Part shown: piece after piece, positions 1 through 25,000 of the stretch
Layout: every line of letters begins with the position of its first letter
How positions within the stretch are numbered: position 1 is the stretch's first letter
Position numbers and translations under genes: made by a program
The notes under the pieces: generated by a model
What the model was told of the DNA's origin: nothing
Databases searched by the model: none
The model's input: the letters and a program-made list of their open reading frames with translations, nothing else
NCBI RefSeq assembly: GCF_000091045.1
Contig: NC_006686.1
Span: 1,580,001 to 1,605,000, forward strand
Reading direction: 5' to 3'
Source: Cryptococcus deneoformans JEC21
Taxonomy: Eukaryota > Basidiomycota > Tremellomycetes > Tremellales > Cryptococcaceae
Length of the DNA: 25,000 bases

Positions 1-32
1 GGCCCGTCAAATCACTCCCCAATTGTGATTTG

Positions 33-3000
33 ATGCAGGAGCAAGCAACCGCCTCGCCCAGCGCTTTGACCACGAATCTCATCGGCGGTATGGGGTCTAA
101 CAAACATCTTGCTACGGGCGATTCTCATGGTTGGCCCATCCAGAGCGCATCGTGAGCATTCTCTTGTTCAATTTCAACGTAGACTTACTTGGCGAAGGCC
201 TTCTATATTGCACAGAGGCATGACCCCGACGACATCGTTACCACCTCCCACAAATCTGGCTCCTAGGCCTCTGACTGAAAGAGAAAGTCACTTAGTGAAG
301 CACCTGAGCAGATTGCAGTTCGTGAGTAAACACTATGGCTGAGGAAACTTTTAACCATAACCTACCCAGTTTCTTGCCACAGCTCCTACGAGGTGGATGG
401 GAACGGGAGAGCGCACGGTGAGGCTAATGCGGCGTTTAAATCGTTTTGGAGAGTTGGCTCACAGCAGACAGAACTCGTCATTCCAGGATAATTCACTTTC
501 CTCTCCTCATCCCAACTTGAATCGTTTCCTCTTGCCAAACGGCGAGTATGTAGCTTGTGTCTTCTGGAATGGGCTGTATCACATTACTGGTACCGACATA
601 AGTGAGCTCAACCGAGCGAATCAACGAGAACAACAACTAACTAGGGATTAGTCAGAGCATTGGTCTTTCGTTTTAAGGCCTTTTCCAGGCCTGTACGGAA
701 TATGAAAAAGTATGCACGATTCAGAGTAGCAGCGCTCCGACTGATTTCAAGCTATCAGATTCGAAGAAGGCGTATTCTCTGATCTGAGGAATCTCAAACC
801 GGGGACAGATGCTTGTCTTGAGGAACCTAAGTGAGTGTAATGGTTTTCGGGAGAAAATAATTGGCGCTGATATAGTTGGCAGGTCACCTTTCCTTGACCT
901 TTTGTTCCGCAATGGCTGTATTAGGACGCAAAAAAAGGCAAGTCTTACTTCTCGATAACATCAGTTTCGAACTAACACCTAGTTTTAGCAAAAGGTGAGG
1001 TGTCCGTTCATTGATGATAGTACTTTTTTGTTTACGAGACATGTAATCAATCTATTCATAGGTATTCTACTGGTTAGTCGTACCCACAGAGGACTACGTA
1101 GCGAATTAACGTTTTCCGCAGGTTCTCGGTGCCTCATGATCGATTGTTTCTAGACGCCCTGGAGAGAGATCTCAAAAGAGAGAAAATGGGGTTGGAACCA
1201 ACGACGATCGTAGTGGGTGAGCCAGCACGGAGTTTTAGGTAAGTAAGGGAAGTCTTATGACACGAACTATGCCATTGACCTTGTATTGCCAGGTATGATC
1301 CGAGGCGAAGCCTGTTCGAACAGTTCGCGGGCAAACAACCTGGCTTAGAAGAATCTGTCAACTCAGTAAGCCTTGGTATTGGGTATTGCATGTTTTCTCA
1401 TTTGACGATATCTTTTCTCGCAGAGCACTCGTGATACCCCAGCAGAGCAGTTAGCGAATCATGATCAAGGTGCAACGGTGCCCAAAACACCCCTTATTTT
1501 GCCTCCTAATAATCTTATTTCGTCATCTTCCTTGCCATCTTCTATTATCCAGAACAACAGCATCATTGTTAGCACCCCACCGTCGCCCGAAAATATCCTG
1601 AACAACACTGAAGATCAATTGAGATGCCTAACGACAGCCAGCAGCGTGTTGTTTCCACGCTCTTTGTTGAAGGGAAGTCCTGCCTATAAACAGGGGAGAA
1701 GAAAGGCCTTGCGAGATAACAAGCAGAGCACTCGGCAGGACAGCGTCACAATCTCCGATTGCGACACCGGAGATGATGAAAGTGGGTCTGAAAGCGAAAG
1801 AGCAGGCCGAGTCGAAAGAAATGGTTTCGAGAGGGATCTAGCCTTAACATCACAATCCTCAGCACCTACCCTTAATCTATCTGAAGATAGTCATGCGACG
1901 ATGGCGATCACCGCGTCCGAGTCGACCAGGTATATCTCATTTCCCTCCTTACAGTCAACCTCGGGAACCACCCTTTCGAGCCACGAACTGCCGTCTCAGA
2001 TGTTATCGCGGCAGCCGTGGGCAACCAACATTATACCTACCACTGCTGCTGCGACCGTCGAACAGTTATCTGCCAATTATGATCAGTTGTCTGCCGCAAA
2101 TGCATTCAACATGGCTCCAAGGTTGTCCTTGCAGCCTCTCGGGCCTCTTATTCCGGGCAGACCAGTCTTGCAGAACTCGACAGTAAAAGGGTTCAGCTGT
2201 CCTCTTCTTTCGTGTGGCAGACTATTCAAGCGGCTTGAGCATCTCAAGCGCCATGTTCGAACACACACCCAGGAAAGACCCTACGAATGCTCTCGATGTG
2301 CCAAACGATTCAGCCGCAGCGATAATCTTACACAGCATTACAAAACGCATGAGAGGCAAGATCGTGGAGGGAGAGATAGGAGTGAACGCATGAAAACGGA
2401 GGCTTCAGAAGGCGCGGATGATGATATAACCACGTACCTCGAAGCTCAAGTGGATGCCATGGCGGGAAGTGCCCATGTATATGCGACGGCAACAGATAGT
2501 TTCGTGATAGGGGAAGAGTCCAAATCGAGTGCGGTCAGCACGGAGGTATCTCGTAGGTTTTATGCAAACAGCAGGCATCGCTTGTAGCTGATACATGGTT
2601 GTAGCACCCAATCGCGGTAACCAGACATCTATTTCCCTGTCTTCAGCTTCTTTGCTCGGCAGCCACGTTACCAATGATATTTCAGCGCATTTCCTACCAG
2701 CCGGCGCGCCCCATGGTTTACCAGTTGACGTTGAATGGCCAAGACTGGGAGTACCACTTAATGCGATTTCCGTCGGAGAAGCAACCCATGATACCTTGAA
2801 CCTAATAAAACGTCATCGATCAATGACACCCAGCCTTCCTCCGTCGGGCCGCATTATTGGGTCGACCAGAGCTTTACACTCATCACCATATCGCAATAAC
2901 CCCCTTTATAAACCATATAATCCATATAACCCATATTCGACCAATGCAGCCATACCAAATGGTCATTCTTTTACACGTGCTGCATCTTTGGATCCATCGG

Positions 3001-3287
3001 TATTCCAAGATCGAGCTGCGGTTCTCAGCCATTTTGTAAGCAGCAAACAGCATACGCCATCGCAGACCATCCCAGCTATGTGTTCTGATCGTAACCTGTA
3101 TACTACTCCGGAGGACCTCCCTGCACATCCCGTAGGGGTTGATGCTCGGGAGAACGCAATCTTTATAACCGGGGGGGGCGAAAGTAGACTGGCCGCCTCT
3201 TCAGGACACCAAACTGATTATCAGCTATCGAATGGGCTGGGCGAGGCTAGTTGGGAGATGAGGATGAGAAATGATTCCGTACCTTAG
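33..3287 (+). CDS. STE12: Ste12-family transcription factor (STE domain plus two C2H2 zinc fingers)
   Basis: Nuclear transcription factor of the pheromone/MAPK mating and filamentation pathway. Exons I infer: 33-151, 216-321, 370-601, 652-709, 759-830, 883-937, 989-994, 1062-1072, 1122-1238, 1293-1365, 1424-2552, 2605-3287; this closes in frame at 886 aa. The STE DNA-binding domain covers roughly residues 60-280 and includes [40 protein letters not shown] and [20 protein letters not shown]. Two tandem C2H2 fingers lie near residues 540-592: C-X4-C-X12-H-X3-H, then C-X2-C-X12-H-X3-H, with a TQERPYE linker. This STE plus zinc-finger layout is known from filamentous fungi and basidiomycetes and is absent from budding yeast Ste12. 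A 54-nt segment (418-471) inside exon 3 has intron signals and no stop; removing it gives 868 aa. The ATG at 33 is the first Met, but the frame is open to the window edge, so an upstream start is possible. The a or alpha allele is not determined. Confidence 0.93.
938..1061 (+). other. STE12: STE12 micro-exon cluster with a GC-AG intron
   Basis: A GC-AG intron (938-988, donor GCAAGT) is followed by a 6-nt exon (989-994, Gln-Lys), a GT-AG intron (995-1061), and then an 11-nt exon (1062-1072). The 6-nt exon restores the conserved family string TQKKQKVFYW. Skipping it keeps the frame but gives TQKKVFYW, lacking two conserved residues. The splice sites were read by eye; no transcript data were available. 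Confidence 0.75.
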
Positions 3288-4098
3288 TTGCTCTACATAA
3301 CCACATCTTTTTTGGGCCATATCTACTTCGGCCTTGAATGATGACCAGCCCTGTTAATATTGACTTGATAAGTGGTTTTCATAAGTTGCGACGTTATTGA
3401 TATACGGTTATATATATGTCATTGGTTCGAATTTATCATTTTGAACTTATACTGAAGAGGAAATTGACTGATGGAAGAAGGAGCTGAGGAAGGTAGAGGA
3501 AGCAGCTGACACGAGGATGTCTTTGGTCGGAGGACTGCAGAAGCTGGAACTTGGCCGGTGGAAATGAGGAGAGGAAGTGTAAATGACTCCAAGTAGGACT
3601 TGAATGCCAGCCCATATTATACAAAACCGGAGCCGTTCGTGAATCAAAACGAACCCAAGCTCAAAAAAGAAAAAGAAAACAGAATGAAGGACTTGGGAAG
3701 GTAAACAAACGAGTTACTGGAGAATTCTTCTTTGACGGATTTTTTGACTGTCGTACTGGCAATCGAGAGATGCTCGACGAGTTTTTGAATGCAAAAAGGC
3801 ATTTCCTATATCGTAAAAGTACATAAAATTTGGAACCCATCATTTGCTTGTTTCGTCCGTCTAACAGCGCTGCCAGGATGACTACTGCGTGCAGACAGTT
3901 GTTGGAGAGCGGGCAGAGAGATTGAATTGTGACATTGTGAGCGGGAAGGACAAAAAGCGAGCGAAGCTAGATCTGGTGGATGAGTACGGCCATCAGACGG
4001 GAAAGAGTCCTTGGAGTTATTATGAGACATCTATCGGCTTCCCATCTGCAGAAGGTGAAGAAGGCGCCGCATGCAAGACGTAGGTCTTAATTAAATGG

Positions 4099-4290
4099 TC
4101 AACATCTCAAGTCAGTGGAGAATAGGGCGATGATGAAAGTTGCAAGGAAGACACCAATAATCATACCAAGAAAATCTATGCTCTTGAAAGCCTCGAGTGG
4201 AATTTTGTCGGAGAAAGGATTGCGGAGGATGGTCCAAGAACGAATGAAGACGCGGACCGACAAGATGATAACAGAGAGGCTCTTCTTCGT
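4099..4290 (-). other. Short membrane-like open segment, possible gene remnant
   Basis: A minus-strand segment of 63 codons is open from just after a TGA at 4293-4291 to a TGA at 4101-4099. Its translation has two hydrophobic runs, one beginning LSVIILSVRVFI and one reading FLGMIIGVFLATFIIALF near the end, separated by a charged stretch. It has no in-frame Met near its 5' end and no clear acceptor in the right phase. It could be a decayed 3' exon of a membrane protein or simply chance. It sits downstream of RPO41 on the same strand. No function is assigned. Confidence 0.25.
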
Positions 4291-4584
4291 TCATTGACTG
4301 GACGCGACCAGTTCGTTGGACGGATAGGAAGATGTCCGCCCTTAGCCCACCCTCCAAAGGTGTACTGACATCCCAGAAGTCAGGCGCATGCAGATGGCAA
4401 TGAAAGAATGTGCTGAAATTTCATAATAAATGTGTCAAAGCTTCAGACAGTATTGGTTTATTAATAATAGGAAGAAAAAAAACCAAATGAACATCATACG
4501 TAATAGATAGCCCGTCGGTAGCAGTCAACGAAAGAGGTCCACTGACGACACTGCGCAGCTACTCTATTTATGAGAGGCCTAAAC

Positions 4585-4651
4585 GTATGGGAGGCCAAAG
4601 GGCAAATAAATAATAATTCAATTTTTTTTGGGTCGCGTTTCGGTCCATAAA
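4585..4651. repeat. Dispersed repeat, copy A
   Basis: About 67 bp closely match 22647-22706 in the same orientation. Both copies share a block starting GTATGGGAGGCCAAAGGGCAA, then an AT-rich stretch with a T-run, then GGTCGCGTTTCGGTCCATAA. The AT-rich middle differs by small indels. The similarity ends abruptly on both sides. This copy is about 90 bp downstream of the RPO41 stop. It may be the end of a mobile element or a short non-autonomous one; the family is not recognised. Confidence 0.75.
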
Positions 4652-4740
4652 TGTTAGCTACCAAAATGATCACAGGAAACCAAAACAAAATCAGACGCAA
4701 TATGATGCATGATACATAGATAACGGTGATTGGAATTAGC

Positions 4741-7700
4741 TCAGGAAAAGAAGTAGGCGGACTGCTTTACCCTACGGACCTCGAAAACACCCCTAGGAGG
4801 ACAAGGCGGCAAGACATCCCTAAACTTGACCCAATTCTGCTTTCCTGCACGGAAAATATCCACTTCCTCATCGTCCAAGCCAGATTTACCTGCTATTTCT
4901 ACAATTCCATCGGTAGGGAGAGATATAGCCTCTGCAGCTTTCACATCGAGTTGCTCAGGAGTTGATGCAATGAGATCAACTTCGGCATTTAATATAGCGT
5001 CATCGAATCTGCCATCAGGATCGGAGTTGGTAAAAGACTCTTCGCCGCCATCATGTTCAGCCAACATTACAGACATGGCTTTTCTCCGCTGGGCAGTCGC
5101 AGCTTTACGCTTGGCAGCGGTGGTAGATATATTTTTAGCTGACTGTATTGGGATACAGTACTCGCCATATCGGTCAAGGAAATCCTCTCTAAGTTTGCCG
5201 ACAAGATCCTGAGAGTGAAGTTCTACAAAGGTGTCTCGGATAAGGTCGGACATTTTTTCGACTGTAGCAGCGTGAGTCCAGTAAGAATCATGCACACTTG
5301 CAAAGGCCAAGTTATTTTGCTTGCGGTTCAGACGTCAGTTTCGCGAACATATTGAAGAAGAAGATAAGACATACTTTACACTTGAGAGCGGTAAGGAGCA
5401 TATGAGTGGCGTCAAGAGAGTGAATGAAATTCGGAGGGAAAGCGGTTGCTTGTTTTTGAGGGCTGACTTCTGACGGAGCGTTGGGGTCTGAGATGTACAC
5501 AGATTGTAAAGCGGTCATGATCTGCTTCTTGTGCGCTTTTCTATATGGTTGCACAACAGGCAAACCCAGAGGGGTCGTCCAGATGACCGCACTCATAAAT
5601 TCTTTGGCAGCCCGGGAAGTGACCTTGCCTGTGCGAGAGGTGTTTGTTAAATTAGTGGCCGCTTCTTGGACACGAGCTGGGGGAATCGATCTAGAGATTA
5701 AACGGGCAGACGTGGTAAGCCAGTCCATGATGGCCTTGGCTCCAGAGAAAAGGTCACCGATACAATTTAACACCTGTTCATGGCAAGTCAGCAGCAGTCA
5801 CCTTCAAAGAATACTGACAGAGGACTGACAGTTTTAGCAATATAACTTGATACGGCAAATATGTGCTCCTGTGCAATATCACCTCTAGCGTGCAATTGCT
5901 TGGCAATCTGGTCTCGTGCACCAACGAAAGTTACTCCATAGACTGTAGTCATTACTGTCTGTTTTACGACCTTTCTCCCGAGAGGTTCCTTGATTAACAA
6001 CGCGATGTCGTGACCGGCCTTCTTGTCTTCCTCGACCACCTTGTTCACTATGTCGACGACACCGGTATAGATATCTGCTGGCCGGTCTCCTGCTTCGAGG
6101 TTGACGGCTTTGGCACCACGAACATCGCCACCAAGAGCAGCATAGTGCTGCATACCGTTACAAGTGCCATCCTGATGAACAGGAAGAGACGACTCATAGG
6201 CTGAAGGATTGGGCGAGCGTAAAGCGGAGGCGAGTTCAAAACATGTGGCGAGGCATTGCCATGGGTCTTCAGCTTTCAGCCACCACCGTTTTCCCTGAAA
6301 CCGTTTCAGCCATACAAACGAGATAAGGTGATTAGAGGGCAACTCACGTCCAAGGGGTGGTCGGCACTATCGAAGATATCAGCTTCGTGTTCCTGCGCAA
6401 ATCTTGCTCTTTCAGCGAAGCTGGCCTTGTCATAACCATACACATTTGCCAAGTGGATTTGCAACCACTTCAGACCTGTTTCACCAAGGGGTTTTTTGGT
6501 ACCAAAAGTAAGAAGACCTCGACAAAGGTCGTCTCCTACAGGACTCAGATGAGGAGGGATCGGATAAGCCCTTCCTCGGAAATCCATATTGTGGGGAAGA
6601 TAGAAAGTGTCTTTAAGATAGGAGCGCGCAATTTCAATATTGTAATTGAACTTGCACCTTTCAGCGTGGTCCTTTCTTTGTTGGGCCAAGACGGCTTTTG
6701 TCTTCTCCACATATTGGACCCTCATTTGCGGATCTTGATCAGATGAATCAGGTTTCTCGGGAAATTCATAGTGTGCTTTGTCTTCTGATGGAGGAATATC
6801 GGCGATCGGCTCGCCTCTATTCCAAGACTCGAGCACGACGTCAAACACTCTACGATTGACCCGCCAAGGGGTTGAAGAAAGAACGTCTAGACCGTGAAAT
6901 ACTGGTTCAAGATGTCCTTCTTCCGACGCTGCCTTGAGCCATTTCTGTTGTTCTAAGGACTCTTTATAGCGCATAACGGGGACTGGAACGAAATAAAATG
7001 TTCAGCGACATATCTCTGAAAGTCCGTTCAGTTGACTTACCTGAATGGAGTAGATAACCGCCTTTATTATGGGCTGTCCAAGGTCTAGGTTCGACAAGCA
7101 TTGGCAGGTGCTTAGGATGTATGACTACGCCGATGTCGTCTTTTGCTAGGCGGGCAGCAACCACAGGGTTAAGTTTGATGACGCCAAGCTTCTTCCCGCG
7201 CACGTACTCGTACGCATGAGTGAAAGCCGGCTGGAGCTCCGTTCTATGAACGCTGGTCAGATGAGATGATACATGAAAGAGAATGGGCTTATACGCACAT
7301 CATCTCACCAGTGTTACGATCCTTGGCTGTTCGTTCGACCTTCGCCACTTTTAACAATGCATCGACCAACTCGGAACCGACGCCGAGCTGAATCATCCGG
7401 GACCAGGCAGGGGTCCATATATCTTGCATGTCGTCGTGGTTGGGAGGCAAAATTTTATCACCTTCATTTTTACCTACACGCTTTGCTTGATTCGCCTGTT
7501 CTCCAATCTTTTTCCAAACTGATCCGATGAGTTGTCTGCTTGGTTTCTGAGTTTGGGGATCGATAGTTTTCAACCAGTGATACGAATCAACACCAGCAAC
7601 ATTCTTGATCGTTTCTGCCCTAAACTCAGTTTCCACAGCCTTGCCGACGGCAACCATGCCTCTCAGAACCTTCATACCATCAGCTATACCGCCTGATCCG

Positions 7701-9113
7701 GACATGCGCATGATTTCGAGGATAGTGATAAGGGCGAGCTTATCAACCGGGAGAAGGGAGAGGTACATGAGGAGAACCTGAGGCTTCATGCGAGCAGTGG
7801 CGGAGTATTTAGGAGGGGTGACAGCGGCTTTGGATTCTGGAAGAGCGTCAATTTCGGCCTGCATGGACGCAATACGCTTCTCGAGTTCTACAGTGAGTTC
7901 ACCAAGCCAAGTATGCATCCATGATTGAAGGACAGATCGTTGAAGGGTGGATGTGTCACCGGCTGCTTGGATACGTTTGGCGCTCTCTTCGAGTTCTGCG
8001 CGGGCTGCTTGGAGAGATGCATTCTCAAGTGCACGTTGGCGGTTTACGGGAATGGAGGAAGAGTCTATGGCGGATAAAGCTTGACGAAGATTGGCGATGG
8101 CGAACCGAGCTTCGTTACGATGGGAGACGTGTGCTTGCTTGCTAGATTTGCCAGCATTCTAAAGGTTGGAAGTTAGTAGATCTATGTGATGTAATATGAT
8201 TTTCACGAACCTCTGTTACGGGCGTGACCTCCTCAATTACTTCAGAGACGAGTTCCTCTCGTCTTTGCTTTTCAAGCCCCTGGAAAGCGAGGACATCTTG
8301 TCGAAGACCCGGCAAAGAGTGAGAGTCGGCGGCTTCAATGACCGCCTGACAAGCTAATGGTAACGCGGAAGGTTCGAGGCCTTGGAGAAGAGATGAAATG
8401 GGCAGAGAAGAGTGTTCAAGGTAAGGGATTATGGGATCCAGAGGAGAGTGGGAGCTAGCAACAGCATTAGTCGTGTTGCGCTAGGCATCTGATGTTGGGT
8501 TTATGAGACAAAAGAAGACCTACTTGATCAAACCATTGAACCAGCCCTGGTAGACCCTCAAACCGTCACGATCCAGACCAGCTGGCTCTTTCGAACCTCG
8601 CGCGCCGTGTGTCTCTCCCCACTGCTCTACTAATCTCGCGGCCCTTCCCCTCCACTTTGGAGCACTAGACCCATGGCTGTGGACGTTACCGAGACTTGCC
8701 ACTCCTTCAATGACCATTGCCCATACTTTGGCTTCTGGTATTCTCATCTGGCCAGTGGGCGTGTCATGAAGAAGCTGTGTAAATATTTGGTATGCTCTAG
8801 GGACATGTTCTGGCCGTCTGAGACATATAGAGATCATAGAGATGGCGTCTATGACCCCAGTAGAAGGGTAGAGAGACGCCTGTGGCGAGTCTGGCGGGGG
8901 CGATATGTCATTCGGGAGCGGGGAGGGGAGGTTGAGAAGGGGCTGTGTGCGGAAGGGGGAGGGGAGGGGGGGAAGGGGATGGTGGTAGTCTGTGGCGTGA
9001 GGGGCGGGCGCTGCAGGGCGTAGCCGCGAGGCGGAAGGAGAGGAGAAGAGGCAGGCACGGATGCTGGCGCGGAGCGGGCCCTTGGAGCGGGCGATCACGC
9101 GGAGGGGAAGCAT
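4741..9113 (-). CDS. RPO41: Mitochondrial DNA-directed RNA polymerase (T7-phage type)
   Basis: Single-subunit RNA polymerase that transcribes the mitochondrial genome. Exons: 9113-8524, 8454-8211, 8158-7299, 7243-7041, 6982-6348, 6294-5830, 5773-5385 region ending at 5375, 5319-4741. They close in frame at 1324 aa, near yeast Rpo41 (1351 aa). The N-terminus (MLPLRVIARSKGPLRASIR) is basic and Ser/Arg-rich, as in a mitochondrial presequence. T7-type motifs are intact: motif A DFRGRAYP with Asp about 766; HQDGTCNGMQH near 884; motif B with Lys about 955 and Tyr about 963 (KQTVMTTVYG); PNFIHSLDATHM near 1113-1124; motif C SVHDSYWTHA with Asp about 1143; and the C-terminal PYFFS-like end AYFFS. 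The start was chosen because it opens the presequence; an in-frame Met lies slightly upstream (MSRCTIYSVHAM). The gene diverges from the ARM gene across 226 bp. Confidence 0.96.
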
Positions 9114-9339
9114 GGCGTGGACAGAGTATATAGTACAGCGCGACATTCGGGCGGCCACTTCTGAAAAATACGAAAATAATGCAGCTTCGCGGCCCTGTCT
9201 GTCACGTGATCCCGGGCACGTCCGCCGTGGGTGCCACGCGGGAACGGACATGCCCGCTGAGTATCGTCACCCGCTCTCGGAGCAAGGATGAAAATGGAGC
9301 AGCATCGCTCCTCTGTGTGCTGCATGGCTTGTACCCACG
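9114..9339. promoter_or_regulatory. Divergent promoter of RPO41 and the armadillo gene
   Basis: These 226 bp separate the two start codons, so both genes must take their 5' control from here or from within each other. A perfect CACGTG E-box lies at 9203-9208, in the context GTCACGTGATC, which is the type of site bound by bHLH factors such as Cbf1. A TATATA-like stretch lies near 9126-9132 on the RPO41 side. Which factor binds is inference. Confidence 0.55.
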
Positions 9340-12059
9340 ATGGATCTCCCCGCACTCAGGCAGCTCAAGAACTCGGTCATCGGCAACACCTGGAAGAAGG
9401 TGCAGCTCGCAGCGGACACCAACACACTCACGGCACTCATTCTCCTCCTCCACCCCGCAAATTCCCCAGACACCGTACACGAGGCCGCGGTCATCCTCGC
9501 ATCCATCGCAACCGTAGGCAACCTCACTCTCAGGCCCATCATTACAAACAACGCTCCTGCACGCCTTCTCCACCTCATACACCCCCTCGTGCATACACAG
9601 CAACATCCTTCCGTCCACCGGCAGCTCACCGCACTCCTCCGCGCACTTCGCAATGTGCTAGTTGCAACAGCTGACATGGTATGGGGCCAGGTTTGGGGTG
9701 TAGGTGCAGAGAAAAAGGTTGTCGGCACAGGCCTTGTCGGGGAAAACGTCCTGCGAGAGACACCCGCCGATAGGTCTCGAGACAAGTACTGGAGAAACGA
9801 CGCCATCGCGGCTCTCACCGTTGTCTTCGAAGTGAGCTCGTTATGTTCTTCATTTCGCCGTCCTCCTTACTCATGCCACACCATGTAGCCGGGCAATCTT
9901 TCTATCCTTCTTTCTCTTCTCAGCTCCTCAAATCATCAAGTAGTCCTCCCAGTGTACCAACTCTTTTCACGTCTCGTCGCGCTCCCCTCAAACCTCCAAG
10001 CTCTTGTCTCGTGGATAAGTCCCGAGCAACCAACGGCATCACCATTACAAAGCTCTAAAGCTGATTTAAACCCATGGTCTACATTTTTTATACTCAGTCA
10101 TCTTCTCATTAACATCATCGAACCTGATAATGAACTGTTCGACAGACATAGCAGACCCAAGCTGATGGAAGCATATCTCGATTTGTTGGGAGCTATAGCC
10201 AAGGGTGACAGTGGTATTTGCGGCGAGATACGACAGTGGCTTCCGCCATACAAGGGTGATAAGGTCAATGCGATAGACGATCGTCAGTTAGAAGTCGTCG
10301 TTCCTCATATCCTCGAGACTGCCAAGAGTACCCATCGTGCCGTACGCCTGGCTGCTATTGGATGGTGAGTCGGCATCCTCGACGGTGCACTACAAGTACT
10401 CACCTTGCGCCATTGAAGTGTAACAAACATTGTGAAAAATGACAAAGGGCCATACTATGACAATCGTGTTAGGCGTATACCCCACGAAGACATCACGGAG
10501 CAGATACTCAACGACCTCATGAGATTGTTACAAACTGACGATCAAGAAGAACGTGTCAAGCTCAACTTCATCCTCGGTGAGTTCTACATACTCAGTAGTG
10601 AGATCTAGCTAACGTGTATATACAATATAGCTGCCCTTGTATCAGATGAACCCGTGCTTCAGCGATCGGCTTGCGAGCACAAGATTCCTCATCAGCTCCT
10701 GGAAAAACTTTGCTCACTTCCCGAACTGGAGTCGACTCTCTCGCCTGATCTATACGCTCGCTCGCTCGAATCTTATCTCTTAGCCCTTGCCTCTTTGGCA
10801 ATGGCTTACAACCGCACCCGAAGCGTCATCGCAGACTACCCTGAACTAGATGGTTCGTCGCCTTCCTGTCCCATTGTCCTCACCCCGCTCAGAATTCTCA
10901 GAGCTTCCTTAACTCACGAAAGTTACGGAGTAAGGGCTGCAGCCTGCCAACTTGCCCGGTCTTTGAGCCGCGCAGTATCAGTTATGAGGACTGGTATGGT
11001 GGACGAAGGTGTTGGCAATGAAGTTGTAAACCTTCTGAAGAGGGAGCTAGAGATCAAGTCTAGTGAAGGTATGGATGATGTTCTGGGAGATGCTGCGTGG
11101 ACGGTGGAAGTTGCTGCTACTGCCACTATTTGTAATCTCATTGCCGATTTTTCGCCTTTTAGACCTGTAAGCTTCTTTTCATTGACCTAGCCAACTCTGA
11201 CGAAAATTTACCCAGGTAATACTTTCGGACAATACCCTACCCATCATAGTTCACCTGACCCACTCTTCCTACACTCCTCTAGCTCTTAACGCCCTATGGT
11301 CAATAAAAAACTTACTCTTTCACGCCGATCCACCGACTAAAAGTTCATTCATGTCTATCTTTACATATTCCTGGCTTCGGCAAATCATCTCATCCTCGAT
11401 GCCCGAAGATATTCAGGAACAAGGTCTAGAGGTCGTTCAGAACCTTTTGGCGGAAGAATCGGGTGCAGAGGTGACGAGGATGGTGGAAAGGCTGGGAGGT
11501 GAGGACGTTGATGGGAAGCGTGGTGGAATAGAAGGTTTTTTGGATTTCTTGGTGGATTTACTAAGCGACAAGGGAGCGGCAATGTTCTCTGAAGTTCGAC
11601 TGTCCGTGAGTCGACAATCGCCTTAACCTATAAGAATGATGTGCTGATGCTGTGGATAGGCCATGTACGTCCTGGTGAATCTGTCTTTGGGCAATGAAAA
11701 GCTACGGACAGCATTGACGGCAAGAGTAGAACTGTTAGAAGTGCTGTCGGAGGCATTGGTGTGTCTTTATGTGCTACTTTCCAAGGCCAGTGCTTATTAT
11801 TTGCCAGAATGTACCCCGAGATCCGCTCAAGATCCCAGCGATCCTCACGTACCACAACCTTCTCGAGTCATCTGCCAAAACTCATCGTCCTCGACAGAAC
11901 ATACTGGATATTCTCGAACCCTATCTCTTGAAGCCAAGACTCAAAAAGCTGTCCGAAGAGTCAAGGAATCTGGATGTGGTTCAAAAATCTATCAAATTAC
12001 TGGATGTGCTCGAGAGGGAAAGGACGACTAAAACGGTGACAGCTCCGAGCTCAAGGTGA
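9340..12059 (+). CDS. Armadillo-repeat protein, possibly GID5/ARMC8 (Vid28)-like
   Basis: Exons: 9340-9831, 9889-10364, 10419-10576, 10631-11166, 11216-11605, 11660-11758, 11808-12059; they close in frame at 800 aa. The protein is almost wholly alpha-helical with repeated ARM-type units, for example LTALLRALRNVLVA, RAVRLAAIGCVTNIVKND and GVRAAACQLARSL, then LALNALWSIKNLLFHA, IQEQGLEVVQNLLAE and AMYVLVNLSLGNEKLR near the C-terminus. There is no signal peptide or membrane segment. The order ALW.IKNLL, then a WL segment, then QEQ.L..V.NLL resembles the C-terminal part of ARMC8/Vid28, a scaffold of the GID/CTLH ubiquitin ligase. That is an inference from memory of the family pattern; a generic ARM adaptor is the alternative. 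The short 10365-10418 intron was preferred because reading on gives CVTNIVKNDKGPYYDNRV. Confidence 0.85.
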
Positions 12060-12090
12060 TATTCCACGGGTTGAATGTTGTTTCTCGTCA

Positions 12091-12864
12091 GTACAATCGT
12101 CTTCCTCAGATCCGGAACATGACCGTGCAACGGTTTGGGGGTTCCGAATCTTGATTCTCCGGTTCTCGACGAAGGGGGTTGGATCAGGACAATAATAATT
12201 TAATTACCTAATTGCACCTCTTTCACGTCCAAAGTAATGCATATAAACCCTTAATAAAAACGCGCCTATAAGCAAGGCTATTTGATAGGCTCGACAAGCC
12301 CCTCGACGGACATTGGCTCGTCTCCGACGAGGCACGAAGTTCCAAGGAGGGGCTTGTCGCAAAATGCAACTTTTGGGTGAGACTGTCGTCGGGGTGAATT
12401 TGGCCTTTTTCGACCATTTTCAAACGACCATACCATTGTTTATGCATATGGAGGTATCAAGACATAGCATTTCATAAGACAATACTGAAGAATCAAGCAT
12501 TTCTTCCTAGGGATGAATATTTGACCTTTAAATATCCCAGTTTCATGCATAACGGTCATAAAGTTGGTGTTCATCTCTGCTATGCAATCTTCCAATGAAA
12601 AGTAGCCAATAGCCTTGCTTATAGGCGCGTTTTTACTAAGGTTTATATATATGTATTAGTACTCTGGAGGTGAAAGAGTTGCGGCTTGATGGGACTAGAG
12701 ATCGGGAAATCAGCCCCCAAAGAGGTTCCGGATCCGGATCTGCCCAAATGTCCGGATCTCAACTGTCTGTACAGCGGCAGACAACCTGAAATGCATCCAA
12801 AAAGGTTCCGGATCTGCCCAATGTCAGGATTCGAAGGTTCTGGAACTGAAGAAGACGACTGTAT
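12091..12864. repeat. Nested inverted-repeat (foldback) region
   Basis: An outer inverted pair, 12091-12118 against 12837-12864, matches at about 23 of 28 positions by my alignment. It encloses an inner pair (12214-12282 against 12605-12682), which in turn encloses a 13-bp pair (12292-12304 CGACAAGCCCCTC against 12347-12359 GAGGGGCTTGTCG). The right arm also has two direct copies of a unit starting AGGTTCCGGAT (12723 and 12803). The 12-mer CAGATCCGGAAC at 12107-12118 is the exact reverse complement of part of the second copy. The region fills the gap between the convergent ARM gene and LPD1. It holds no gene that I can support. Confidence 0.7.
12214..12682. mobile_element. MITE-like element with terminal inverted repeats
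   Basis: About 469 bp bounded by inverted repeats of roughly 70-78 bp. The left end begins GCACCTCTTTCACGTCC; the right end, reverse-complemented, begins GCAACTCTTTCACCTCC. The inner 28 bp of each arm, around CGCGCCTATAAGCAAGG, match perfectly. No transposase ORF lies inside, so if mobile it would be non-autonomous. I could not find a clear target-site duplication at either edge. A related one-armed copy lies at 18851. The family is unknown to me. Confidence 0.7.
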
Positions 12865-12950
12865 ATCATTATCCTTATCACAAACCAACGTGATAAGCAT
12901 GTAATAACTGTTAGACACCATGCATAATATTTGTGAAATAACCGTTACAT

Positions 12951-15025
<2,075 letters not shown>

Positions 15026-15379
15026 TGTGGAGAAAGATGTTTGGAGAGTGTAAGGAAAAAGAGGATAAGTATGAAGACAAGCGCGGTGGAAGGCTTCGCA
15101 GAGAGAGACGGTCGGAGACGGCAGAACATGGCCGCCGCCGCTCCCGCCGATAAATCCGTCGTGGCACAATCCTTACGTGGCATTTTCAAGCTGCTGTGGT
15201 CGTCGCGTCGCTCGTCGTCGTCGATTACTATTCGTCGTTCACCATGACTGCCTGATGATGATGCATATATGCGAACTATTGATTCAATGAAACAGGATAT
15301 TCTTTTTGCACTAGCACCTGCTAAGCAGACAAAAGTCCCCTCCTCTAAGCCACCCTGAGTGTATGTATGGTATTGATTT
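15026..15379. other. Gap between LPD1 start and CID1 stop
   Basis: 354 bp lie between tandem genes on the minus strand and must hold the CID1 3' end and the LPD1 promoter. A CGTCG-rich stretch lies near 15198-15230. No gene or clear regulatory box was seen. Confidence 0.5.
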
Positions 15380-18300
15380 CTACGACCGTTTCTCGACCGC
15401 GGGATCCGGGTGCTCCGTTTTCTCCCCAACAATTCCGGCGCTACTGCTCGTTGCAACCTTTGGAGGAGGGTTTATCGTCCCTGTCCCGCTCACAATTAGC
15501 TGTCTAAAATCCCCTACAAGCGCATCCATTCCTCGCACTCCAACTGCTTGTGTATCGGGCAAAGCTGAAGCGCCCGTTGAAGGGGATAACAGAGTACTAG
15601 GGCTAATGAAGTTGACAGCAGAACCGTTCTCATTGGTGTCGGCAACCGCGCGATGGGGTGCTGAACCAGAGGCTCCAATTGAACCAGGAGCTGGCGCTAC
15701 CACTGGAATGCCGACAGCTTTGGAAGAGGATTGAATAGGCGCCGCATCAAATGGTGCAAAGACTCTCCCTCTTGAAGAACCTCCAGCCGAGGCAGGAACA
15801 CCAAGATTCGGTCCCGACACTGAACGCGAGGTCCCCTGCTGACTCTGACTTCTCAAACTTGAAGGTCCTGACATGCTCATCGGCATACCCGCACTCGCGT
15901 GCAGCCTTGGATCGTAGCTAGCCCACAATTGCTGAGATCCCAAACCGGAGCCAATTCCTTTGCCGAGTTCCAGTTGCGCATACATCCGCTGCGGACTCAG
16001 TGGGGCGGAGATAGTGCCCGAGGTAGACGCAGCGTTGCCTCCATAAGCAGATGCGGAGCGACGAGCAGAGGGATTATTACGATAAGCGCCACTGGGAGTA
16101 TCAAGCCCTCGCGCAACAGTGTCTCGACCACGTGCACCATGAACGCCCAAATCATCAAATCCGAAACCAAGACCACCAACTTGCACGCCACCCAGATTGG
16201 CACCCTGACTTTGCAGCCAAAGGTCCTGCGCAGAATACTCAGGTATGTCGTCCTCGCCTCTTCTGCCATGCGATTCGTGCACACCTGAAGGTGTGAGACG
16301 ATCAAAGGGGGCTTGTGAATGAGATCTCCATGCGCTCGGGGCATGGGCACCAGAAAAATTGCTGCGAGCAGCGGACAGAGCTCGAGGAGCTGGAGAAGAG
16401 GAACGAGGGGCTCGTTGAAGCTCATCCTCACGCTCACGACAGAGTTCAGCGAGAGCAAGAACGGCGCGTTCCGGTCGTTGAGTTAGGATCTATCGATATG
16501 TCAGCTCTCTACAACGACATTCCAACTTGTTTACATACTCTTGTAGCGCGCATGAATTCTCCTCGAATCTGGTGAATAATGCGCGGTAAGTAGGGAGACT
16601 CATAGCAATTTGCATAACGACTCACAGTGTACAAGCCATCTTTAGTCACAGTTCTCGCCACATTATAAGTAATTTCAAACGGGTCCTGAAGATCGTCAGC
16701 ATCACTTACCGCGACTGATTGCACTTGCACTTACCTCGATACAAAGCCTATTTCTGTCTCTGGCCATTTCATTCAGACCTCCAACGTCAATATCATTGAC
16801 CCAGCCTTTGCTTTCTTTCGTCAGCTGTCCTGCTCGGAGAGAGAGAACAGAATTATTGAATTGGAAGTCATGGGAGAAGTATCGGAAGAAATCGACCAGC
16901 CTAGATGATGTCAGCGTAAAACTATGCTCAAGGTTGAGGAAGCATGAGGACATACAACTCTCCGACACTTTCAAAGTTGACACTAGACCATTCTCTCCTC
17001 AGGGTTTCTACGTCGTCAAAAAAATACACATTCCTTCCTTCCAACATGACTTCTTCTTCCTCCAGGGGCCGCATGGGCATTATACGCTGCAAATTGGGGA
17101 GTACAGGCGGTTGCTTTACATGCACAAGGAAATAAAGCACCATGAGGGTATAGCCATCTATTATCTGTTAGTCATTGATTATGTCTTGGCGGAAAAAATC
17201 TCACAAGAAGAGAGTGTTCCGCGATAAGGAGAGTTGATTCTACGTCTTTTGGACCATACTTTTACTATATATAGCGCCCTCAGTAACCGGCGCGGTTTCG
17301 CAGACACTTAACTCACGGAATAGTACGAGGGTCCTGACCCTTGCAGGATCAATCGTCGCATAAGTCAACAACAGACGGGTGTTCTCAATGGCAAGCCTGT
17401 TCTCGATCCCAATATCACACGCAATCCCTGTTTAACGACATGGTTTCAGGTCAGCGAACGGCGAGAGGGCTGGAATGGGCAGTGAGGGAGCATACGCGCC
17501 CAAGATTCTCAAATACTGTTACAAAATCCGAGATGTAACTCACCGAAAGGGAGAGCGGGAGAGGGGGCAAGCTCAAGTTTCAGGATAGGGATTCTTGCCC
17601 TCGGGAGTGGTTTGACGTTGAAATTAGTCTCCTACGGCCAACTAACATTAGTTCATTTGGTCAATGCTCCGAAAGCCAGCATAATAAAAAGTCCCCTGGA
17701 TAACGAGGGCACTGGTGCGCAAAATGATAGATTCTGACTTACGCGCTCGAGAAGTGCGGCCATACTTTCAACGAAATTTCCCGGGTCTATTTTCGCATTA
17801 GGGTCATCAATCAAGACGACAAGATCCATATCTACTCCTGATTAGCAGCTCATACGACATACTTGCTTTCTTGCTTTCGACGTCACTTCCCACATTGTTT
17901 TCGACATCGCTTTCGACAAACGGACTGCATAGGAGTTCCAACACCCGACCAACAGGCAGAACTTACCGGAATTCCGCAAGCCGAAAGAATTACAGCTGCT
18001 CCCAAAACTCAATAACCTCGCAGATGGCTCCAGCCCCTTAATAAGTTTTTCGATAAGACATCGCACCCTAAAAAATCATGGTCAGACATACATTCTTGAT
18101 TTCACAGTCAACAATTTTTCAACGCGCCACCTCGCTTGCGGGTGCGTCGAACACACAAGAGATGGATAAGAATGTCAGAAACAATACTCACTCTTCCTTG
18201 ACACTGAGCTCTTCACTAGGTGGCAAAAGAGGAAGGACAAAAGAGAACAGAGAGGTTGAAAGGTCGTTGAGAAAGCGACGGTGTAATACGCCGGGGTGCA

Positions 18301-18692
18301 TTTTGGTCGTTGAGGATTTGTGGAGTACTAGCGTAATATGAGGGCGCCAACGAACGTCCTGCAAGCTTGATTAGTTTGAAATATCGGCAGAGGAACAGCG
18401 AAATGTAATGAAAGCCATTTTTGGAAGAGAGGTGGGAGGCTTCCGCCGGGAGAGTGGATACAGACAGCATAGAGGGCAGATGGGGTTTGGGGGCGAACTA
18501 GATGAGTAAACGATACTCACGTGGGGGATGTATCCTTGTGGACAGGAGGCGGCCGGCGGAGGAGGAGTAGGGAGTGGATCCACTGCTGCTGAATACTGTC
18601 ACGATAGCGAACTGACCACGCAAGGAATCGCTAACAACCTCAAGGGCGAGTTTCTCGCGACCCATTTTGGAGGCCATACTGCAGCTGCCCAT
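15380..18692 (-). CDS. CID1: Cid1-family non-canonical poly(A)/poly(U) polymerase
   Basis: Cytoplasmic-type terminal nucleotidyltransferase that adds A or U to RNA 3' ends, by family. Exons: 18692-18680, 18588-18521, 18358-18192, 18067-17967, 17831-17743, 17631-17544, 17427-17317, 17264-17205, 17157-16956, 16900-16735, 16685-16626, 16568-16539, 16489-15380; 754 aa. The pol-beta-type catalytic motif FGSSCNSFGLRNSDMDL gives Asp117 and Asp119; the third Asp is about 180 in IACDIGIENRLAIENT. The palm continues with YRGTLSSYGYTLMVLYFLVH. The PAP/25A-associated domain includes DPFEITYNVARTVTKDGLYT, then IRGEFMRATR. A tail of about 370 residues, rich in Ser, Gly, Ala and Pro and probably disordered, is coded by the last exon. 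The first two exons are the weakest part: the start at 18692 is chosen because its splice phase joins the frame ending GYIPH to DVRWRPHITL. Introns in the 5' half are unusually long (91-162 nt). Confidence 0.92.
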
Positions 18693-18756
18693 AGCCACGT
18701 GGCCACCACGCCTCCGCCTATTTATGCCACCTCATCCTTATGTCTTCTACTACTAT

Positions 18757-18793
18757 CTTCTTCTTCTTCTTCTTCTTCCACCACCACCACCAC
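18757..18793. repeat. TTC/CCA trinucleotide microsatellite
   Basis: A run of seven TTC-type units passes directly into about five CCA units. It lies 65-100 bp upstream of the proposed CID1 start and is likely to vary in length between strains. Confidence 0.85.
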
Positions 18794-18850
18794 ACGCACT
18801 GTAGGAATTAGTCCCGTCGCCGGGATTTGGCTATACAGCAGCTGCACGCA

Positions 18851-18956
18851 GCACCTCTTTCACCTCAAAGTAATACATATAAACCTTAATAATAACGCGC
18901 CCTATAATAAACAATCAAGGCTATTGATGACCATTTTCATTGGAAGAATGATGTTG
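18851..18956. mobile_element. Truncated copy of the MITE-like element
   Basis: Begins GCACCTCTTTCACCTCAAAG and runs through ATAACGCGCCCTATAA and CAAGGCTATTGATGACC to CATTTTCATTGGAAG. It follows one arm of the 12214-12682 element and a little of its interior (compare 12588-12682, reversed). No opposite arm is present, so it is a solo arm or a decayed copy. A small insertion (AAACAAT) splits the CTATAAGCAAGG block. Confidence 0.7.
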
Positions 18957-19136
18957 TTATGGTGCAATTTTGTTGCCGATGCCTGCTGCTGCATTTGCTG
19001 TTAAGTACCAGCGTCACTCATAATAGTTTGTCTCATGTATGTAGTATATACCTGTATATGTGAACAGCAAGCTATATGGTCGCGCGTTTCATATTCAATA
19101 TCTGCACATCTAACCACAAGACCACAAGCATAAAGT

Positions 19137-22100
19137 CTACAGTTGCACCGCTCTATCACTCCCGGCTAACAAGCTCTCAAAGAGCCCCATTGCGGAGTTT
19201 TCATTTCTTAACTGGATCATATATACAATCCCTGTACGCTTGCCCCGATCTGATATTTCCACCGCAACACCTGTCTTCGCCACCCTTTCAACACCATCCG
19301 TAAGAACGATGGTCGATATAAACAATTGTTTGGATGATGAATCAGATTCAACCACCAGTTGTTTGACATGGCCAACGGCCTGAGAGTAGAGTTTGAGTTT
19401 TCCAGAACCGAGAGACTTCCATTGCTGATGAGACTGTTTCAGAAATACCTTACACTTCATCTGCGCAGAGATGATAGTGGGCCCAGTTAACGAAGCAATA
19501 TCCTCTTCAATAGGGGACTGTGGTGGGGAATCATCATTATTGCTCACACCCAATGGTGACACTCGTCCGGGGAAATTATTGGTAAACATTGCCGATGATG
19601 GCTCCAGCGGGCGAAGCGGTTCGAGAAACCTCGATCCGAGCGCGTTGGCACGGGGCGCCAACGAGTTTGACCCATGACGTTGGTCAGATACGAAAGACCC
19701 TGAAACCCCCAAAGATGTTGCTGGAAGGTCCTGTTGCATTCGTAGATGCAGAGGGCCTGAAGCGACGGACTGGCCAGAGGGAGATTTCGAAGGTGGTTGA
19801 CTCGTAGGTAGCTGATCTTGCTGAGGATAAGACATGCCCTGAACAGGAGGGAGGGCAGACATTTGTGTGCTGGAGGATGGCATGATTAGTCCAGGTTGAA
19901 AAAAAGGGACTTGATTTGTTTTAGGGCTGGGAGGAAATCCTCGCGTGCGAAGACTTGTCCCTCGTGGAGGTGGTGTGGTCACGGCCGATGGTCCAACTAC
20001 AGCAAATGGCATGGACATTTGCTGTGGCGGAGGTTGCGTCGAACTTTGTGGCCATACAGCACACTCCTCCGTCCCCAGAGATACTTTTTCAATTTGGGAA
20101 ACCAGGTCATGGGCGTTGGCTTTTGCTTGTTTGGCGTCGTCTGCACGAGAACTGGTAGACAGGGCCGGGGTTTTGGTGATTGGTGCAGGGAAACGAGTGA
20201 CAGGGAGACCAGCGGAGGTCAGAGGTTGACATTCAACGGGTGAGGGAGCTGCATTATGTGGTCGATTGACTGACCAAGAGAGATACTAATCAGGAAGTTG
20301 CTTGGAGCCCGAAACTGCAGTGACCTACCAGAAGAAGCAAAGTCTATGCAATCAATAAGATCTCTCATTATTTGGTCCTTCGCAATTTCTGATTCCGTGT
20401 GAATCGTAAAGGTTTCTTTCCGCATAATCATCACTGTTAGAACATTTGCTAGAATTGCGTTAAACTTTGCTTCTATCGTCAACGTCTCTCAACTCACCTT
20501 GGAGCCCTTCCGCCACCATCAAGTGCTTTCCCGCTAGAGGAGGGTAACTGAGCCACATTTCAGGCATGGGTCCACCACGGCCCACTCTTTCAGGTTGTTC
20601 TCTGGCAATCTGCTGCATTTTCGATGCCTTGTCGGCCGCTTCCATCCATTCAGCAATGATGAAAAGGTCACTGAGGATGAAAATGTGGGCACGCTTATGT
20701 ACGACCGGTTGACCGGTTGCTGAAGGCGTGAGGTAAAGGGTGACATCGTGTGATGAGCGAAGAGAGCGACTAAAAGGCAGGAATGGGGGATTCATCTGTA
20801 GTTTACATTTCTAGTAATGATGATTAGTACTTGTACTTCCAACGTGCGAGTCGAAAAATAGTTCACCTTGAGTTTCATAGTAAATAAGTCAATCGTCTTT
20901 TCTGGATCTATCCTCAACTCAAGATCAGACAAGGGTGATGTTATTGCAAATGTGGTAGCAGGGGCCGTCCCAACAGGAGATTGGGCAGCTGGCGGTCTTT
21001 GGGCAGATTGCGCGATACTGGTTACAATAGAACCACCTGAGCTGTGGCTTTCAATTCCGCTGCTGAACGGTGAGATACTAAGATCAGTCAGTGAATCGCA
21101 CGAGTGAAGTACGTCAATGATGCTTACTTTCTATGGGATTCCATGGAGCTGTCTAACGCTGAACTGCTCCTGCTGAGTCTTTCCTTGTCTTTTTCTTCAA
21201 TCTTAACGCTTTCAGGGGACGAGCACATAGGCTTTTTCTCCGCGTGGTCGCTGACATCCAGTTCCAACCTGGCTTCTACTTCGCCAACCAATTTCTCTAG
21301 TCTCTTATTCGCCATCACCAATAGCATATGATCGCTTCTTCCTTCTTTGGTGCTTCGAAGGAGTCCCCCGTACAACTTGCGATAGTATCGTAAACGCGTA
21401 TAAGGAAGAATGAACAGAGCGTCGAGCGTCCATTGAGTCAAGGGTGGAGTGGGATTTGAGCTTGACGATATTTCGTCCAGGATGCCGGGTAGAAGTGGGT
21501 TACGGATGACAGGAAGGTATGAGTCGAAACCTGACAAGAAGTTTGTGGCGTATCTATGGTATGCTGGCTCAAGGTCGTCTATCTTTAATGTATGTCAGCT
21601 TGGTATATACTGAGAAATGGCATAAAAACACACCCATCGCATCAGAATGTCCCCGAGGGCCTTAGGGCTAGATGGATTTGGCCCTATCTCCCTCAGTTTC
21701 TGCACCCATTGTCAGCGGACCTCTTTCGGTAATTGCGAGGTTGTATCTAGGACTGACCTCCCCAAACCCCTTATTCGCCCGATACACAGCCTCCACAGAT
21801 CTAAACATGGAATCTAGCTTAGCTGGCGGAAAGTTTTTTCTAGACCATGCACCTGCGGCTCGCTACGATGCAGCTGTGAGCCGAGTAAATCATTGAGGGT
21901 ACAGGGCAAGATCAAGCAACTCACCCGAATGATCAGACCTAATTGCTCCGCGTAGAGCTTTTCACTTTCCATCAAATCTACCAGAGGGTTTCTTCTTTGT
22001 GCCTCCTGCTCCTCTATCATCACACCCGAGCCAGATGACCCCGAGGCTGAAGAGCGAGATATCCGTGGACCGGGCATGGACATCGGGCCCACCACTGGCA

Positions 22101-22275
22101 AACCAACAACAGAAGGAGCGACGTGAGCCTGGGGCCACGGTCCTTGATCGACAGATGGAGAGTATGTGGGGGAAGTGGTGGCCAATCCCGGACGAGTGGG
22201 TATGAAGTGACTAGGAATAGGAGCGGGAAAAAAGTTGTATGACGGATCTGAGACGGTGTGGTACGGTGCTGCCAT
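19137..22275 (-). CDS. GEF1: Rho/Cdc42-family guanine nucleotide exchange factor (DH-PH)
   Basis: Predicted to load GTP on a Rho-family GTPase at the cell cortex, controlling polarity. Exons: 22275-21925, 21862-21758, 21699-21634, 21582-21128, 21077-20867, 20810-20498, 20433-20329, 20248-19137; 905 aa. Residues 1-90 are Pro/Ser-rich. The DH domain (about 95-330) starts with NPLVDLMESEKLYAEQL and contains the helix LDALFILPYTRLRYYRKL, the counterpart of the KPVQR..RYPLLL helix. A PH domain lies near 380-535 (DVTLYLTPSATG, HIFILSDLFIIAEW, RKETFTIHTESEIAKDQIM). A long Pro/Ser/Gln-rich linker leads to a conserved C-terminal module of about 110 residues (STIVLTDGVERVAKTGVAVE, then GIVYMIQLRNENSA). 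Exon 6 could instead begin at 20795, dropping five residues in frame. The exact GTPase is not visible from the sequence. Confidence 0.9.
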
Positions 22276-23155
22276 GAGAAAGTGTGGTTTGTAGACGCAG
22301 TGTTACAGTATGTCTTGCTTTAATGGATGCTTGATAATTAGAAGTATGTGTACATTTGAATAGCAGGTCGTACTGTGCGTTGGGGTCGTAGGAGAGACAA
22401 TTAAAGAGTTGAAATAAGCGGGAAACGGAACAGGGGAGGAAGGGTGCGTGGGTGGGGAATTGGCGGAATTGTGCTCGTATCTGGCAAACTTTCGATCTTT
22501 TTGCAGGGAGTATGAGCGGAGCAGGCGGCCAAGGATGTATGGAGTGTATGAGCAAGAGATAAATAAAGGGGAAGGATAAGGACACCCGTTACAGGAGGGC
22601 TATGGCCCTTCCATCGTACGCGGCCGCCGTAAATAAACAGCCAGTAGTATGGGAGGCCAAAGGGCAATAATTCATTTATTTTTTTTGGTCGCGTTTCGGT
22701 CCATAATTCTGTTTTTGTCTCCCTGAAACCGTGTGATTGATCTGCTGGTGGATGTGATGCTTTTAAAACCACTGTTTCTTTCGTTCTTGTTTGTCCAATT
22801 TCAATCATTCTATGAGCACGCTTCTTAACCATATTTACGGAACCATTTTTACATTTTTAGTAGCATACTTATATAACTATACAGGGGCGGAGGGGTGGGA
22901 GCAATGTTCTTATACTCTGAAAGTTACGGGGGTAAAAATGTCAAACTCAAATTAACTTTACCCACCACCAAATGCAACTCATATATACTCAACTAAATAT
23001 AAAGACCGGCATATCAGGTTATAATCCGCATATACGTCTTAAAGCGGGATTCAACCATAGAATCATGAGATGAGAAGAGACGATCACCGACTGTCCTACA
23101 AGCGCCTTCTCTTATATCTCGCATGCCGTAAACGTGGCAATAATCCATTAACCTC
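22276..23155. other. Gap between GEF1 start and RUM1 stop
   Basis: 880 bp between tandem minus-strand genes, holding the GEF1 promoter side and the RUM1 3' end. It carries copy B of the dispersed repeat (22647-22706). A long minus-strand reading frame at 22832-22401 runs across that repeat and has no recognisable protein features. No gene is called. Confidence 0.55.
22647..22706. repeat. Dispersed repeat, copy B
   Basis: About 60 bp match 4585-4651 in the same orientation, starting GTATGGGAGGCCAAAGGGCAA and ending GTCGCGTTTCGGTCCATAA. It is shorter than copy A in the AT-rich middle. It lies about 370 bp upstream of the GEF1 start. Confidence 0.75.
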
Positions 23156-25000
23156 TTATTGGTTCTCCATAGTAACATCTTCATCGACAACATGACGCCC
23201 CTCCTTAACGGCAGTGAATTCTCCCATATCCGAATACGAATACCTTTCTTCAGAGCCTTCACGTGAATCGATATTGTCGTCAAGAACACTCTTCCCAGTT
23301 ACAGCCGTTGCTCGTCCTTCGCAACATATAGTGGTGGCTGATGCGGTGCAACCGTTTTGCCGCACTATGGACGTAGTAGACGCTCCGGTAGCAACGGGCG
23401 TTGATGAGAAACAAGATTCTAGACCAAAATCAGAACGCAAGTCGAAAGTTGACCGGTTTTGGATTGTGGGTGTCAACAAAGAAACGGAAGTATTGGCATT
23501 CGACTCGGCAGGGGTGTAAATGGTGCGTGGCACAGCGCTGGATTTTGTTTGCGTGTCAGGTAATGCACCCATAGCAACTGAGGAGCCACCGAATTCAGAG
23601 CTTGCTGTCTGTGTGGGGATCTTGTTGAGTATTGTCGAGGGAGGGCCCATAAAACCCTTGGCAGCCACTGTCTTCAAACCATGGGCGACAGGGTTGTTCG
23701 TTGCTTGCTCATTCCGGAAACCTCCGTCAACTCCTCCAGATTTCCTCTTTTTAATCCTGTTCAAAGAGTCTTCCCTCTCTTCCATCGTTTTCACATTATT
23801 CGGAATACGTGCAGGCACGAAGTCGATGCACTCCAGAGTAATGGCGCTTGCAGAAGTAGGTTTTGTTATAACAACTAAGCGGTCCGCAAAATCGTTTATG
23901 ATGGTGTGATAGTCAAGAAATTGGTCCGTTCCGCGATGTGCTATCCTCAATTGATCAATTATATATCCAAAATCCATAACGTGGACAACTTACAGCTGAG
24001 CTGAACTCGAACCTCGACACCCTTTTGATAATGCCTCCCATCTCGAACTGTACAACATGGGCATGTCCAAACAGACTTCCCTGCAAGCCCCTCCGTCATC
24101 TTGACGCAACCCGCATGGTATCCCTGTCCACATTTGGGACACTCAATCTGTGCAGTAGTATTTTCGCCCGCGGACGACATCCCACATAGACAATAAAACT
24201 CGTGAGGATGTGATTCTGCAAGAATGATACGTGCTCTTCGACGAGGTCTTGCGCGTCCTGAAAGCGTCCCATTTTCACTGTTCATCAAAGTAGATTGCCC
24301 AGCTGCCAAAGCCACAGAAGGTCTACGGCCCACCTTCGACTGCACACCAACAGTTGACAATGAGATCTCTTTCGCCTTCATCCTGATAGCATCTTGCATC
24401 CTCCTAAATAGCCAGTTTACGAACACGCAGCGTTCGTTAGTCTGAGAGTTACGTGCGTCAAATACGAGTGGCAAGGTATAGATCTTGCGGATAGTATGTC
24501 GAAGCAATTCTAAATCCCGGCAAGGAGGAGAAAGACTGAGGGGATCAGCCAGGCGGAACGCTTGAGGAGCGTAGCGGATAGCTGCAGAAGCAATATATTG
24601 AGCGAGTTCAAACTCCAATGGATTTATAAGGAAGTTCCAACGTTGTGGGGAGATTAGACCAATGAAAGCATCGAGGGAGGGGCCATCGTCGTTGGGCAAA
24701 CGTTGGCACATAGCGCACTTGAATTCTTCTGGAACATGGCGGAGGGACACATCTACGCATCGGGGATGGTAGCTGTGCTGACAAACTTTGCACATAACCA
24801 TGTTATCTGCTGGTGACGACCGACAGAAACAGACCCTCTGATTGTTGTGCGCATCGTCATCTGGTGCAAGGCTGTTTTCAAACGCGCTGCGGATGTAATC
24901 AATGGTAGAGGCAAGTCTTGCAACTGGAACGCCTAAAACCTTGCTGGCCTCTTCCCTCCAAAGGGCATGATGCTCGAGCTCGGCTTGTAACTGGCGTATT
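23156..25000 (-). CDS. RUM1: Rum1-type PHD-finger chromatin regulator, C-terminal part
   Basis: Partial gene; the 5' part lies beyond the right edge. Two exons are visible, 25000-23994 and 23940-23156, joined by a 53-nt intron whose phase matches (596 codons seen). A first PHD finger (visible residues about 57-98) has CFC, CKVC, H..C and CAMC zinc ligands. A second (about 269-316) has YCLC, CPKC, YHAGC and CPCC. Between them is a helical linker of the kind found after the JmjC region in JARID1/PLU-1 proteins. The tail after the second finger is Ser/Thr-rich and unremarkable. Ustilago Rum1 is a chromatin repressor of mating-type-regulated genes with ARID, JmjN/JmjC and PHD domains; the ARID and Jmj parts would be outside this window. 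The RUM1 name rests on this layout plus the MAT neighbours. Confidence 0.82.

Follow-up and report, generated by a model that had tools for sequence, protein, structure and literature searches.

The window, which here means the whole stretch of 25,000 nucleotides that was analysed, comes from NC_006686.1 (C4:1580001-1605000, chromosome 4 of Cryptococcus deneoformans JEC21), and the genome-wide searches covered 19,051,922 bases in 14 contigs. According to gene models and Pfam matches, its genes stand in the order STE12, RPO41, BSP2, LPD1, CID1, GEF1 and RUM1, a contiguous set of seven MAT genes in which RUM1 is recognised by PHD fingers and position only.

The 3' part of STE12-alpha occupies positions 1..3287 on the plus strand, with a STE domain (Pfam STE, 2.4e-16) and two C2H2 fingers (zf-C2H2); its 5' end lies beyond the window, and exon borders are uncertain in the first 1.4 kb. 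RPO41, a mitochondrial-type RNA polymerase (RNA_pol, 4.1e-74), is found at 4741..9113 on the minus strand, and its start codon at 9113 was read from the sequence, as the gene finder overran into BSP2. BSP2 (9340..12059, plus strand, seven exons) was first modelled wrongly at the third exon and the 3' end, and was corrected with the database protein P0001 (782 aa), which can be threaded through the window without a mismatch, across six GT-AG introns and up to a TGA stop at 12057-12059. Pfam, motif and species-identity runs for BSP2 used the early model, which has about 18 extra residues and misses the last exon. LPD1, a dihydrolipoamide dehydrogenase (Pyr_redox_2, 5.1e-71; Pyr_redox_dim, 2.7e-44), lies at 12951..15025 on the minus strand, with its first exon (15005-15025) read by eye. 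The gene finder, which is simple and crude, fused it with CID1 (15380..18677, minus strand, start uncertain), a Cid1-family poly(A)/nucleotidyl transferase that matches PAP_assoc ("Cid1 family poly A polymerase") at 1.8e-17. GEF1, a RhoGEF protein (RhoGEF, 4.4e-14), is located at 19137..22275 on the minus strand, and a published crossover breakpoint falls inside it (1,600,099-1,600,248, window 20099-20248; PMC4263396). The last gene, at 23156..25000 on the minus strand, carries two PHD fingers and continues beyond the window; it is probably the 3' part of RUM1, a name that leans on published order and position. Searches of the window for tRNA and Rfam families gave no matches, and the gene finder produced no model at the published position of ZNF1. 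The earlier note had named STE12, RPO41, LPD1, CID1, GEF1 and a RUM1-like gene, and all six are present; BSP2 is a seventh gene that it left unmentioned.

The surroundings were covered by eleven stretches, which read as N in places, and these were searched for genes. To the left of the window, the contig carries three pheromone genes at a distance of 26-45 kb (C4:1534707-1534823 on the minus strand, 1535437-1535553 and 1553396-1553512 on the plus strand), and they share a C-terminal peptide ending in ...EAHPGGMTLCVIA. To the right, at a distance of 33 kb, a Homeobox_KN match lies at C4:1637963-1638082, the sole match in the genome among those listed at E <= 0.001. Both kinds of gene had been expected nearby if the window were a MAT segment, and both are there. 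Other gene models on this contig are, to judge by their translations, probably PRT1, STE11, MYO2, STE20, SPO14 and CAP1. Matches to the STE3 receptor family are listed only at C2:1239350-1240350, in a search that covered the sequence near the window in part, and we presume that this receptor gene is perhaps CPR2. Separately, window 3454-3527 weakly matches (76%) C4:1639156-1639231, which adjoins the homeodomain gene.

In C. amylolentus and T. wingfieldii, the five genes from RPO41 to GEF1 belong to the pheromone/receptor locus, and the homeodomain locus is separate (PMC3280970); on that model, the window might be an autosomal or tetrapolar pheromone/receptor region. Here, one contig carries both the pheromone genes and the homeodomain gene, at a distance of 84-104 kb, which makes such an origin extremely improbable.

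Published coordinates give a further comparison. In PMC4263396, markers on JEC21 chromosome 4 (NC_006686.1) are set at gene or intergenic midpoints. Eight MAT markers have a coordinate in its text, and five of these were compared with our gene models. The three closest agree within 1.5 bases: Inter-RPO41-STE12 (model 1,584,014, published 1,584,015), Inter-RUM1-GEF1 (1,602,715.5 and 1,602,717) and SXI1D-alpha (1,637,942 in both). The difference is larger for Inter-STE20-MYO2 (about 31 bases) and for Inter-BSP3-IKS1 (198 bases), the names of both gene pairs being assumed from position. PMC2374700 gives locus tags CND05820 to CND05860 for five genes in the same order as in the window. Its RPO41-BSP2 interval (1,585,174-1,591,759) is narrower than the present models by 433 and 300 bases, and its LPD1-GEF1 interval (1,592,529-1,602,117) starts 422 and ends 158 bases earlier. 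The C. neoformans var. neoformans MAT-alpha of Fraser et al. 2004 (PMC526376; JEC21) has the same gene set, five-gene block, STE12 and RUM1 flanks and coordinates; no difference was found in a comparison with its text.

From the above, the window is almost certainly the central part of the bipolar MAT-alpha locus on chromosome 4 of C. deneoformans JEC21, and the reading of it as a Cryptococcus MAT segment holds in gene set, gene order and marker midpoints. The allele is alpha, because the homeodomain gene stands at the published SXI1D-alpha position and SXI2Da is stated to be absent from JEC21 (PMC4263396). A MATa allele, or the locus of the sister species C. neoformans or C. gattii, could look much the same within the window, since little difference between a and alpha is described for the five-gene block (PMC526376) and the two C. 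deneoformans database entries of BSP2 differ by one residue. Against these origins stand the homeodomain gene, the stated absence of SXI2Da and the exact threading by the C. deneoformans protein P0001; the entry P0002, one residue different, gave no exact threading. With the early model, BSP2 identity is 94% to C. neoformans P0003 and 86% to C. gattii P0004. The agreement of the published JEC21 markers, given that the assembly is JEC21, counts against both, and we regard either origin as highly unlikely. This MAT-alpha locus serves as a standard model of how sex-determining regions evolve in fungi; its content in the window is already known in detail, and nothing here is new on the locus itself.

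Within the locus, the block RPO41-BSP2-LPD1-CID1-GEF1 lies between STE12 on the pheromone/receptor side and RUM1 on the homeodomain side. In Fraser et al. (PMC526376), the phylogeny of these five genes is species-specific and not mating-type-specific; they occur in all six alleles, together in three, and were termed "recent" MAT genes, with entrapment by translocation proposed. This proposal was revised by Findley 2012 (PMC3280970) and Metin 2010 (PMC2873909), because related species already have the five genes at the pheromone/receptor locus, and the latter suggests that they may be linked through a MAT-related function. Fraser et al. also describe MAT as reshuffled by inversions. On their proposal that RUM1 is a gene of the homeodomain side, the two sides would now meet, in this allele, at the spacer between GEF1 and RUM1.

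With the start codons read here, a peak of GC content at 8901..9400 runs from the 5' end of RPO41 across the spacer at 9114-9339 into the beginning of BSP2. It is highest over the 5' end of RPO41, with 0.70 at 8901-9100 against a mean of 0.486 for all 200-bp segments. The RPO41-BSP2 spacer is likewise described as GC-rich in PMC3390403, and the peak fits the gene-conversion region of that paper, a match made by feature.

Repeats lie on both sides of the five-gene block. A short direct repeat of 60-66 bp, with two identical outer blocks, has one copy between STE12 and RPO41 (4585..4650, plus strand). The second (22647-22706) is inside a longer relic in the spacer between GEF1 and RUM1, which is full of repeat relics (22647..22887, plus strand), and is followed by a dispersed repeat at 22812-22887. 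At E <= 0.001, a query of 111 bases around copy 1 gave these two copies and no other place, and a 20-base core also matches C7:819153-819172 with two mismatches. With a longer query, the relic around copy 2 was found to be common to C7:819041-819183 and C4:1553714-1553802. The pair was considered as a scar left by the arrival of the five-gene block, and this was rejected; transposon debris is the better reading, because of these related relics. That the repeat brackets the block was noticed post hoc and carries little weight. The term "direct repeat" is absent from the text, figures excluded, of the MAT literature that was checked.

Other elements in the window are also transposon-like. In the element at 12214..12682, inverted repeats of about 68-75 bp form the outer part and enclose an inner dispersed repeat at 12286-12577; a single end of the same family is found at 18849..18950. 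An outer end and, after it, the inner repeat recur at C4:1563963-1564455, and on C6 and C10 there are paired ends at a spacing of about 2.7 kb. Among the papers listed on miniature inverted-repeat elements in Cryptococcus, none names this element in its title or abstract opening. For the dispersed repeat at 22812-22887, whose other copies account for 19 of the 23 matches of the longer query, there are four opposed pairs on C3 and C7 with a spacing of 2.7-3.3 kb, and these look like the ends of a DNA transposon.

BSP2 is listed in Fraser et al. (PMC526376) among genes without previously defined homologs. In a profile search against the PDB, its best match is 7nsc_E (2.5e-54), followed by a designed armadillo protein (4.5e-18) and yeast Gid5 (1.6e-15), among the best 60 of 113 matches. 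Alignment of BSP2 with the ARMC8/Gid5 family by hhalign gave 99.8% over 599 columns. By fold, too, ARMC8/Gid5 is the best PDB match of the predicted BSP2 model and covers its full length, with low-confidence loops in the model and an identity as low as 13-20% in the fold alignments. BSP2 thus shares a full-length armadillo-type solenoid with the scaffold subunit known as ARMC8 in the human CTLH complex and Gid5-Vid28 in the yeast GID complex, and with the ARMC8 family it also shares an N-terminal K-N-[S/A]-V-I-G stretch. Yeast Gid5 has been argued not to be an orthologue of ARMC8 (PMC6680376); the BSP2 profile matches both.

When the genome was searched exon by exon with one tick ARMC8, two other places were found among the matches listed and BSP2 was absent; read from their letters, these places are probably a TOR kinase and a Vac8-like protein. 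In plain tblastn, individual BSP2 exons and the TOR piece score alike. When the tick protein was compared with the fetched pieces only, the joined BSP2 protein reached 8.4e-15 and the rival fragment 2e-4, and we take BSP2 to have been missed by the exon-by-exon search because of its introns. As for other components, the genome contains five CTLH-domain matches at three places and one Gid4-domain match (4.5e-39).

Taken together, profile, fold and motif make it quite probable that BSP2 belongs to the ARMC8/Gid5 family, and as such it would be a putative member of the GID/CTLH ubiquitin ligase, in the place of its ARMC8/Gid5 scaffold. The open literature that was searched yielded no paper tying BSP2 to armadillo proteins, or Cryptococcus neoformans to ARMC8; PMC4830568 covers Cryptococcus and Gid5, and mentions neither BSP2 nor ARMC8. 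Names assigned automatically to relatives in databases already point in this direction.

If this placement is true, inheritance of the sex-determining region includes a metabolic ligase's substrate-receptor scaffold, whose gene stands head to head with that of the mitochondrial RNA polymerase across a gene-conversion hot spot. A coupling of mating to carbon metabolism or protein turnover through BSP2 is a guess with little probability behind it. With the family placement itself, one of the five "recent" MAT genes would gain a function that can be tested.
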